A stretch of DNA of 64,000 bases, taken from Halobellus captivus. GTDB taxonomy: Archaea; Halobacteriota; Halobacteria; Halobacteriales; Haloferacaceae. The position numbers were made by a program, and so were the translations under genes. The stretch covers positions 153,436-217,435 of the forward strand of contig NZ_VJXQ01000002.1 of NCBI RefSeq assembly GCF_007655485.1, in the 5' to 3' direction. Every line of letters starts with the position of its first letter. The stretch's first letter is position 1. Of this stretch, positions 10,625 through 62,347 are shown piece by piece. The notes under the pieces were generated by a model that worked only from the letters and a program-made list of their open reading frames with translations, ran no database searches and had not been told where the DNA came from.

Positions 10625-10630
10625 GTTTAT
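10625..10630 (+). promoter_or_regulatory. TATA-like box of the upstream RNA element (copy 1)
   Basis: GTTTAT in GAGGGTTTATGACC lies about 28 nt before the conserved GTGACGTA at 10656. The second copy of the element has a TATA box at the same distance (62029-62035), so the promoter is part of the duplicated unit. Confidence 0.55.
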
Positions 10631-10655
10631 GACCGATCGAGCGGCCAGCACCCGC

Positions 10656-10762
10656 GTGACGTAGCAGCCATCCCGCGTTGTTCGCGATCGTTCGGCACGA
10701 CGACGCGGGAGTGGAGTCGACGGCGTCCGCGAGGGCGTGGTCGCGAGCGGTGTGCCGACTGT
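10656..10762 (+). ncRNA. Putative structured RNA element, copy 1 (upstream of DNA ligase)
   Basis: Non-coding element about three-quarters identical to 62059-62163. Hairpin P1 pairs 10671-10678 with 10703-10710 (TCCCGCGT/ACGCGGGA). It has a 6-nt bulge, then an inner stem 10685-10691/10697-10702 capped by TCGGC. P2 pairs 10718-10725 with 10736-10743 around a 10-nt loop containing CGCGAGG. TCGGCAC in and beside the P1 loop (10692-10698) is complementary to GTGCCGA at 10752-10758, a possible pseudoknot. A further hairpin (CCGACT/AGTCGG) may follow. The 345-nt spacer 10555-10899 holds no other gene I can support. It could be a free sRNA or the 5' leader of the ligase mRNA. Confidence 0.6.
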
Positions 10763-10899
10763 CAGCCCACAGTGCGATGGGAGTCGGTCGCGGGAGCCTC
10801 GACTCCGAGAGCTTCTGCACCGAACGTCGCATATCGGCCGCGAGGCGGTCCACCCCGGAGTCGGCGGACTCTTATCCGACCGTGCGATACTCCCTGCCG

Positions 10900-12738
10900 A
10901 TGGAGTTCGCCGAGTTCGCAGCGCGCGCCGAAGAGATGGCGGAGGAGTCCGGCGATCTGGCGACGACCGACCTCGTCAGCGACCTCCTCCGGGATGCGGT
11001 CGAGGACTTGCCGATCGTCGTGCGCTTCCTGCAGGGTCGAGTGTATCCGGCGTGGGACGCGATGACGTTGGACGTCGGACCCGCGCTCGTACACGAGTCG
11101 ATCGCCCGCGCGGCCGGACCGAACGTCGACGCCGACGACGTCGAGACCAAACTCGCGGACATCGGCGAGATCGGAGCGGTCGCGGGGAGTTACGACTTCG
11201 GCGGCCAGCGCGGTCTCGACGCGTTTACCGACGCCGACAGCGAGGCGCTGACCGTCGCCTCCGTCGACGAGCGCCTGCGGGAGATCGCGACGACGACAGG
11301 CGACGGGAGCGAGAAGCGACGGCTCGACACGCTGTTCGGACTGTTCAACAGCGCCTCGTCGTCGGAAGCGACGTTCCTCGCCCGCCTCGTCCTCGGCGAG
11401 ATGCGGATCGGCGTCGGCGAAGGAACCGTCCGAGACGCGATCGCCGCGGCGTTTCTGGAAGCACGTGACGGCGACGACGTGGATGGTGACCACGTGGATG
11501 GCGGCGACGCCACTGACGTTGACAGTGACGACGCCACAGACGAGGGTAGTGACGACGCCACCGAGGAGGGTAGTGACGACGCCACCGAGAACGAAAGTCC
11601 GGTTTATGCCGTCGAACGGGCGCTGCAGGTCTCGAACGACTACGGGATGGTCGCCCGCGTCGCCCGCGAGGAGGGACGCGCGGGACTCGAAGAGATCGGG
11701 CTGGAGGTCGGCCGTCCGGTACAGGCGATGCTCGCGCAGGCCGGGAGCGCCACCGAAGCGATCGACGAGTGGGGCGAAGCCGTCGTCGAGACGAAGTTCG
11801 ACGGCGCGCGGGTGCAGGTCCACGCCGACGGGGAGTCCGTCTCGCTCTTTTCGCGGAACATGGACGACGTCACCGATCCCCTCCCCGAGGTCGTCGAATT
11901 CGTCGAGCGCGCGGTCGACGTCCCGGTCGTCCTCGACGGGGAGGTCGTCGCCGTCGCCGACGACGGGTCGCCGCTCCCGTTCCAGGAGGTGCTCCGTCGA
12001 TTCCGCCGGAAGTACGACGTCGAGCGGATGCGCGACGAGGTGCGCGTCGAACTGCGAGCCTTCGACTGCCTGCACGTCGACGGCGAAGACCTGCTCGATG
12101 CACCGCTGCACGAGCGACACGAACGCCTCCGGCAACTGCTCGGCGGGACCGACGCGTTCGCCGAACCCGCCGTTTCGTCGGATCCCGACGAGATCGCGGC
12201 GCTCGAAGAAGAGGCGCTCGAGGCGGGCCACGAAGGTATTATGCTGAAAGAGCCGGAGTCGACGTACGCGCCCGGCAAGCGGGGTCGAAACTGGCTGAAG
12301 CGCAAGCCCAACGTGGAGACACTCGATCTCGTCGTCACCGGCGCGGAGTGGGGCGAGGGTCGCCGCGCGAACCTCCTGGGCACGTTCCTCCTGTCGGCGC
12401 GCGTCGACGGAGCGGGAGAGCACTCGACGAAAAACGGATCCGCCGCGGAGCGCGACGGCTACGCCACGCTCGGCAAGGTCGCGACCGGGATCACGGACGA
12501 AAAACTCGAATCGCTGAGCGAGCGGCTCGAACCGCACATCGAACACGAGTCCGGACAGACCGTCTCGATCGCGCCCGAGGTCGTCTTCGAGGTCGGCTAC
12601 GAGGAGATCCAGGGATCGCCGACGTACGAATCGGGGTACGCGCTCCGGTTTCCCAGATTCATCGGCGTCCGCGAGGACAAAACCGCGGCCGACGCCGACA
12701 GCCTCGACCGCGTAGCGCGGTTGGCCGACGCACAGTAA
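10900..12738 (+). CDS. lig: ATP-dependent DNA ligase
   Basis: 612-aa replicative and repair ligase that seals nicks through a Lys-AMP intermediate. The adenylation motif is VETKFDGARVQVH with Lys299 as nucleophile. Downstream motifs include SRNMDDVTDPLPEV, VVLDGEVVAV, EGIMLKEPESTYAPGKRGRNWLKRKP (motifs IV-V) and a C-terminal OB region. An N-terminal DNA-binding domain occupies about residues 1-230. Residues about 189-232 are an extremely acidic insert with three near-identical 8-residue repeats (SDDATDEG/SDDATEEG/SDDATENE). The start is ATG 10900 (MEFAEFAARAEEM), about 28 nt after a CTTATC TATA-like box; the upstream in-frame extension is the RNA element. Confidence 0.95.
   Translation: MEFAEFAARAEEMAEESGDLATTDLVSDLLRDAVEDLPIVVRFLQGRVYPAWDAMTLDVGPALVHESIARAAGPNVDADDVETKLADIGEIGAVAGSYDFGGQRGLDAFTDADSEALTVASVDERLREIATTTGDGSEKRRLDTLFGLFNSASSSEATFLARLVLGEMRIGVGEGTVRDAIAAAFLEARDGDDVDGDHVDGGDATDVDSDDATDEGSDDATEEGSDDATENESPVYAVERALQVSNDYGMVARVAREEGRAGLEEIGLEVGRPVQAMLAQAGSATEAIDEWGEAVVETKFDGARVQVHADGESVSLFSRNMDDVTDPLPEVVEFVERAVDVPVVLDGEVVAVADDGSPLPFQEVLRRFRRKYDVERMRDEVRVELRAFDCLHVDGEDLLDAPLHERHERLRQLLGGTDAFAEPAVSSDPDEIAALEEEALEAGHEGIMLKEPESTYAPGKRGRNWLKRKPNVETLDLVVTGAEWGEGRRANLLGTFLLSARVDGAGEHSTKNGSAAERDGYATLGKVATGITDEKLESLSERLEPHIEHESGQTVSIAPEVVFEVGYEEIQGSPTYESGYALRFPRFIGVREDKTAADADSLDRVARLADAQ
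11524..11595 (+). repeat. Three 24-bp tandem repeats inside the ligase gene
   Basis: Units at 11524-11547, 11548-11571 and 11572-11595 begin AGTGACGACGCCAC. In frame they encode SDDAT plus three residues. They lie in the acidic linker between the N-terminal DNA-binding domain and the adenylation domain, so copy number can vary without breaking the catalytic core. Confidence 0.9.
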
Positions 12739-62028: not shown

Positions 62029-62035
62029 TTTATAT
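62029..62035 (+). promoter_or_regulatory. TATA box of RNA element copy 2
   Basis: TTTATAT within GCGAGCGTTTATATCCGG, with purine-rich BRE-like bases upstream, 27 nt before GTGACGTA at 62059. Same spacing as the copy-1 promoter. Confidence 0.7.
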
Positions 62036-62058
62036 CCGGAGACGAGGCCAACGCACCC

Positions 62059-62163
62059 GTGACGTAACAGACACCCCGCGTCGTCTGCGGTTGTTCGGCA
62101 CACCGGCGTGGGATGAGATCGGCGGCGCTCGCGAGGACGTCGCCGGAAGCGGGTGCCGACTGT
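62059..62163 (+). ncRNA. Putative structured RNA element, copy 2 (upstream of Lhr helicase)
   Basis: Second copy of the element at 10656-10762. P1 pairs 62074-62081 with 62106-62113 (with G-U wobbles where copy 1 has G-C and A-U). It has the same 6-nt bulge and an inner stem capped by TCGGC. P2 pairs 62120-62127 with 62138-62145 around a 10-nt loop. Changes are partly compensatory: A-U in copy 1 P2 is G-C here, and an inner P1 C-G is U-A here. TCGGCAC (62095-62101) is complementary to GTGCCGA (62153-62159). A short hairpin CGTGCT-GAC-AGCACG follows at 62190-62204. The spacer to 62374 also holds a 26-bp repeat. Confidence 0.62.
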
Positions 62164-62235
62164 TCGCCAAATTCCCGGGGAGATCTCGGACGTGCTGACA
62201 GCACGGTCTCCCCAGCGACAGTACCGAATGGGGAA

Positions 62236-62347
62236 GAATCCACGTCTCCGTTCGTACGGCAGAACCCACGTCTCCGTTCGTACGGCAGAATCCACGTCTC
62301 CGTTCGTACGGCAGAACCCACGTCTCCGTTCGTACGGCAGAACCCAC
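62236..62347 (+). repeat. Four 26-bp tandem repeats upstream of the Lhr gene
   Basis: Units at 62236-62261, 62262-62287, 62288-62313 and 62314-62339, plus 8 nt of a fifth. Each reads GAAYCCACGTCTCCGTTCGT then ACGGCA. CCGT-TCGT-ACGG in every unit can fold into a 4-bp hairpin. The repeat ends at the TATA-like ACTTATCC element, about 28 nt before the ATG. Confidence 0.92.

Follow-up and report, generated by a model that had tools for sequence, protein, structure and literature searches.

A multicopy family of haloarchaeal small-RNA genes that joins a predicted leaderless start-stop frame to a pseudoknot and may load and hold a ribosome

What kind of element do two intergenic segments of Halobellus captivus share, one upstream of a DNA ligase gene and the other upstream of the gene for Lhr, and does it serve those genes? 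Both lie in the window, the 64,000-nucleotide stretch of contig NZ_VJXQ01000002.1 analyzed here. The first-pass annotation, made from the letters of the window alone, had proposed a structured RNA with its own promoter, present in two copies that agreed at about 82 of 107 aligned bases. The similarity holds: positions 10656 to 10762 and 62059 to 62163 are identical at 84 of 108 alignment columns, with an alignment score of 56 compared to at most 16.5 in 1000 shuffles. Both copies also carry the TTTAT box (30 nt upstream), P1, CGCGAGG and GTGCCGA. A second hairpin, P2, had been listed among the conserved features and is only optional, and the conserved part of the unit continues past its proposed ends, to 10767 and 62168. 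The parts of the two copies are as follows.

10626 to 10631, + strand: TATA box of copy 1 (TTTATG), first base 30 nt 5' of the start codon
10643 to 10647, + strand: family-specific promoter element GGCCA of copy 1, at -13
10656 to 10664, + strand: predicted leaderless minimal ORF of copy 1, GTG ACG TAG
10665 to 10671, + strand: spacer from stop to pseudoknot in copy 1, 7 nt, unconstrained in sequence
10672 to 10680, + strand: 5' strand of S1 (P1) in copy 1, pairing with 10701 to 10709
10681 to 10691, + strand: loop L1 of copy 1, conserved GCGR..G
10692 to 10698, + strand: 5' strand of S2 in copy 1, TCGGCAC, pairing with 10752 to 10758
10701 to 10709, + strand: 3' strand of S1 in copy 1
10710 to 10751, + strand: loop L3 of copy 1, with the optional hairpin P2 (CGCGAGG loop)
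10752 to 10758, + strand: 3' strand of S2 in copy 1, GTGCCGA
10759 to 10767, + strand: conserved 3' tail CTGYNNGCN of copy 1, here CTGTCAGCC
62029 to 62034, + strand: TATA box of copy 2 (TTTATA)
62046 to 62050, + strand: promoter element GGCCA of copy 2
62059 to 62067, + strand: predicted leaderless minimal ORF of copy 2, GTG ACG TAA
62068 to 62074, + strand: spacer of copy 2
62075 to 62083, + strand: 5' strand of S1 in copy 2, pairing with 62104 to 62112
62095 to 62101, + strand: 5' strand of S2 in copy 2, pairing with 62153 to 62159
62104 to 62112, + strand: 3' strand of S1 in copy 2
62113 to 62152, + strand: loop L3 of copy 2, with the optional hairpin P2
62153 to 62168, + strand: 3' strand of S2 (62153 to 62159) and conserved tail (62160 to 62168) of copy 2

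A DNA search of the window's own Halobellus genome with copy 1 as query led to 15 places. The alignment of 16 copies conserves the TATA box, GGCCA between it and the predicted start, GTG at the predicted start, P1, and the 3' GTGCCGACTGTTCGCC block. A first covariance model, limited to the RNA part of the element, found 38 copies in this genome at E < 0.001. A second model (R2), built only from other genomes and with the promoter included, found 44 where two had been described, and in a search of the window it detected both of those (E = 2.4e-17 and 6.5e-13). Twelve of 17 Halobellus genomes contain the family, with 18 to 59 copies each, and the R2 search detected no copy in the other five. Those five (G014, G313, G316, G419 and G421) also gave very few first-look candidates.

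Across the order, R2 found the RNA in 76 of 146 sampled genomes and 30 of 56 genera, several genomes having at least 25 copies each. Named records with the RNA include Halobellus, Haloferax, Haloarcula, Halobacterium, Natronomonas, Halorubrum, Halorussus, Halogranum, Halegenticoccus, Haloarchaeobius, Haladaptatus and Halomarina, among others. A phylum-wide sample gave matches in 17 of 197 genomes, every one within the order and none in the other euryarchaea sampled. Since many haloarchaea, including five members of the genus itself, have no detectable copy, any function is not universal. At the gathering threshold, Rfam 15 yields only a tRNA in the whole window; the best sub-threshold match at the element (15.2 bits, against 46) is at chance level, and relaxed thresholds gave nothing. 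Neither Rfam nor the open-access literature that we searched, by sequence and by topic, describes the family, and an earlier mention in subscription journals or supplements is possible. The proposal of a previously unrecognised haloarchaeal RNA with its own promoter is thus borne out by the Rfam comparison and by homologs with strong covariation.

We next consider whether the RNA serves the genes that it precedes, as a leader of ligase and Lhr and perhaps as a means of regulating them jointly, both of which had been suggested. A cis-regulatory leader (riboswitch or attenuator) of such downstream genes would suit the contexts in which a same-strand gene follows, and the ligase-upstream copy is kept in 6 of the 12 family-carrying Halobellus genomes. 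Placement relative to the following gene is not consistent, however: in 127 of 183 copies the gene that follows is convergent (p = 1.6e-7), at a median distance of 35 nt, and at the Lhr locus, where 10 Halobellus genomes have a copy, its orientation is opposite in 4. Ligase and Lhr each have TATA-like boxes just 5' of their ATG, and elsewhere copies flank unrelated genes of all kinds. A leader is therefore very improbable. None of the 186 scored copies overlaps a predicted gene, which together with the mostly convergent neighbors and the flips at the Lhr locus points to each copy being an autonomous gene, with predicted transcription, so that of the two roles first offered, sRNA or leader, only a gene of its own survives. 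The unrelated neighbors, the Lhr-locus inversion and the genes' own TATA-like boxes likewise leave shared repair-gene regulation unsupported, and the association of the two window copies with DNA repair is a coincidence.

In the four inverted cases (L384, L386, L388 and L390), the RNA gene has the same position upstream of Lhr as its window counterpart but is encoded on the other strand, which suggests flipping or replacement in place. Two repeats occur near the window copies: a head-to-tail repeat whose unit of about 27 nt (GGCAGAACCCACGTCTCCGTTCGTAC) recurs about four times in the DNA that separates copy 2 from Lhr (62229 to 62345), and a short acidic repeat (GDDATE-like) within the DNA ligase gene, between the matches to its N-terminal and catalytic domains (11490 to 11610).

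With up to 59 intergenic copies in a genome, a number that depends on lineage, and with opposite orientations at the Lhr locus, the family could be a dispersed non-autonomous mobile or selfish repeat that chances to carry a promoter and a structured RNA. We regard this as quite improbable, given that 18 loci are syntenic across Halobellus species with compensatory changes in place, that copies inside one genome are only about 70-80% alike, that structural selection is strong, and that no inverted-repeat ends stood out in the copy alignments. A strict sequence pattern gave 0 matches in viral contigs. BLAST against plasmids returned mainly GC-rich chance matches; the one true copy among the results is on a plasmid of Halobellus limi, where it occupies an unannotated intergenic region flanked by msrA and a gene for dihydrofolate reductase.

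The conserved fold is not the pair of hairpins first drawn, P1 and P2, but an H-type pseudoknot in which the P1 loop pairs with GTGCCGA. Its first helix, S1 (P1), has 9 bp, and an NCGGCAC-type segment of the S1 loop joins a downstream GTGCCGN to form the 7-bp S2. In an independent set of 100 loci, none of them used in model building, 97.4% of pseudoknot cells form a standard pair (98.4% in S1, 96.0% in S2). The two helices interleave and each covaries: compensatory changes occur at 16 of 16 pseudoknot pairs, including all 7 of S2, in line with the pairing-preserving differences originally noted between the two copies, and the covariation score is 0.598, compared to 0.18 for shuffled and at most 0.12 for slid partners. 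As the alignment was fitted to S1 and not to S2, the result for S2 is independent of a modelled helix, and the presence of wobble pairs points to RNA rather than DNA. Run by itself, RNAalifold did not recover the pseudoknot and proposed a spurious pairing to the promoter. A candidate helix that would pair GCGG of L1 with CUGY of the tail showed no covariation and was dropped.

Constraint within the element is strongest in S1, S2 and the tail. Loop L3 varies widely, and the whole element ranges from 77 to 129 nt among orthologs; P2 is an optional hairpin in this third loop of the long Halobellus form, gained or lost among orthologs. No terminator-like T-run was found 3' of the conserved tail. 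The spacer between the stop codon and S1 measures 5-8 nt in 221 of 226 copies, and its sequence is no more alike in orthologs (identity 0.387) than in random pairs (0.386), on which grounds we rejected a locus-specific antisense role for it.

The pseudoknot and a predicted leaderless start-X-stop frame are the two most telling features of the family, and neither appeared in the first description. The distance from the first TATA base to an RTG is 30-31 nt in 190 of 226 scored copies, the placement expected for leaderless mRNAs, so the predicted transcript should begin on the start codon. Of 186 copies, 146 have a GRCCA-like element at -14/-13, compared to 2 of 87 other TATA promoters, and this enrichment suggests that the copies are probably co-regulated through a family-specific promoter element.

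Among the 100 independent loci, 99 have RTG (GTG 84, ATG 15, ATC 1) and 98 have a stop at codon 3 (TGA 90, TAA 8, TGG 1, TAC 1). Over the family as a whole about 86% of copies begin with GUG, and codon 2 varies freely (ACC, ACG, ATC, CGC, CGT and some 20 others). Codon 3 across 186 copies is TGA in 157, TAA in 15, TAG in 11 and TGG in only 1, though position 8 is G in 158 of the 186; positions 8 and 9 are interdependent as stop codons require (Fisher p = 5.6e-10, uncorrected for relatedness). At 18 orthologous Halobellus loci the start, codon 2 and the stop all change (TAG for TGA or ATG for GTG, for example) and the frame is kept, and three length variants (L104, L150 and L152), two with one extra codon and one with one fewer, retain an in-frame stop. 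Judged by these patterns of substitution, the peptide of the mini-ORF could not matter, and the frame would.

A few copies depart from the pattern. In L145 and L149 (Halobellus clavatus), L299 and L306, the codon-3 stop has become TGT, TGG or TAC, and these are possibly decaying copies or a variant. L123, L240 and L270 begin ATCACCTGA in place of RTGNNNTGA; here AUC may be a rare start, or the start may have been lost.

RTGNNNTRR could instead be a recognition motif (an initiator DNA element or a protein-binding RNA motif) rather than an ORF, with the RNA as a protein decoy or scaffold. The family-specific promoter element at -13, an invariant T7 and a nearly invariant A9 would fit such a motif, but the interchange of TAG, TAA and TGA with avoidance of TGG, the interchange of ATG and GTG at orthologous loci, and the whole-codon length variants with their in-frame stops make it improbable. 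We also rejected a Box C/D guide RNA, as RTGNNNTRR has no RUGAUGA consensus and the TAA and TAG variants break CUGA.

The existence of the family, the pseudoknot and the start-stop frame are strongly supported by sequence comparison. As to what they do together, we lean tentatively, with slightly less than even confidence, towards small-RNA genes whose leaderless start-stop frame and pseudoknot load and hold a ribosome. From the GRCCA and TATA promoter, the RNA would begin on AUG or GUG with the start-X-stop frame, followed after a spacer of 5-8 nt by the H-type pseudoknot and then by a CUGYNNGC tail. A 70S ribosome can bind an RNA that begins with AUG or GUG, and recoding pseudoknots sit at a comparable distance from the A-site codon. 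A 70S ribosome would thus bind the leaderless start codon directly, decode one codon, make at most a dipeptide and reach the stop; once the stop codon occupies the A site, the pseudoknot would abut the mRNA entry of the ribosome. At its 5' end the RNA would in this way load and hold a ribosome or a terminating complex, and its effect would be directed at ribosomes, by sequestering or sensing free ribosomes or termination capacity; the bound ribosome may also protect the RNA. The common anatomy, devoid of locus-specific segments, suggests that the copies share one general task rather than each silencing a different mRNA.

Most mRNAs of Haloferax volcanii lack a leader (PMC4983044), and many of its sRNAs are occupied by ribosomes without showing signs of coding (PMC12482152). 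In the reporter tests that PMC4983044 cites, translation from leaderless GUG starts was weak. The preference for GUG is the main argument against efficient translation of the mini-ORF, and it may reflect a need for slow or poised initiation.

That preference would also suit a trans-acting or protein-binding sRNA in which the pseudoknot is the active part and the start-stop merely neutralizes ribosomes drawn to the leaderless RTG, stopping them from translating through and unfolding the RNA. The unconserved peptide with its free codon 2 and the concentration of constraint in S1, S2 and the tail agree with this as well. It leaves unexplained, however, why RTG is retained in 99 of 100 loci when the RNA could simply begin otherwise, and why the stop-to-stem spacing is so narrow, and we consider it a serious but unlikely explanation.

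Several known systems resemble the ribosome-holding RNA proposed here in part. Minigenes of the lambda bar type have just one codon between start and stop and are thought to act via the ribosome and not the peptide. A two-codon-type minigene has been described in the axe-txe toxin-antitoxin operon (PMC8708949). The likeness is the very short frame; such minigenes lie inside mRNAs, whereas the haloarchaeal frame is predicted to be leaderless, opens an RNA gene of its own and, in dozens of copies, is coupled to a pseudoknot that covaries. Retroviral readthrough or frameshift signals consist of a stop codon, a spacer and a pseudoknot, and share with the family an H-type pseudoknot 5-8 nt after the A-site codon. 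In contrast to these signals, the haloarchaeal RNA has no conserved downstream frame, and the length of loop 3 varies among orthologs, which argues that recoding is not the purpose of the pseudoknot; ortholog lengths do not keep frame, and we rejected a readthrough or frameshift element on these grounds.

The AUG-stop minimal uORF of plant NIP5;1 also acts on ribosomes and resembles the haloarchaeal RNA in its minimal start-stop frame, but it is a cis element in a eukaryotic 5' leader rather than an RNA gene. Another partial likeness is with the ribosome-associated sRNAs of H. volcanii, such as SHOxi and sRNA_61, the latter 111 nt long, very abundant and ribosome-occupied (PMC12482152). By their description they are alike in being small haloarchaeal RNAs with ribosome occupancy and no detected protein, but they are not presented as a single structured family that has a start-stop frame.

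Minigenes, H-type pseudoknots and leaderless starts are each known singly; to our knowledge, their combination in one stand-alone, multicopy RNA gene is new. We put forward, with more reserve, the broader idea of a dedicated haloarchaeal RNA system, numbering up to about 60 genes in a genome, in which the start-stop frame loads a ribosome against the pseudoknot, and for which we know of no counterpart. Apart from mechanism, a family of structured RNAs present in tens of copies per genome has apparently been overlooked in a well-studied archaeal group, and its design is the simplest possible leaderless frame coupled to a covarying pseudoknot. If ribosome engagement is real, it would represent a new way of controlling translation and offer a handle on the regulation of leaderless 70S initiation, which some consider ancient.

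Because the family occurs both in species with few copies (Haloferax) and in species with 20-60 (Halobellus), the idea is directly testable. The Haloferax copy (L116, L131 and L161) is located near rtcB, with a HAD-hydrolase gene on one side and a small zinc-finger-like gene on the other; this HAD-adjacent site is common to Haloferax and Halobellus and may be ancestral.
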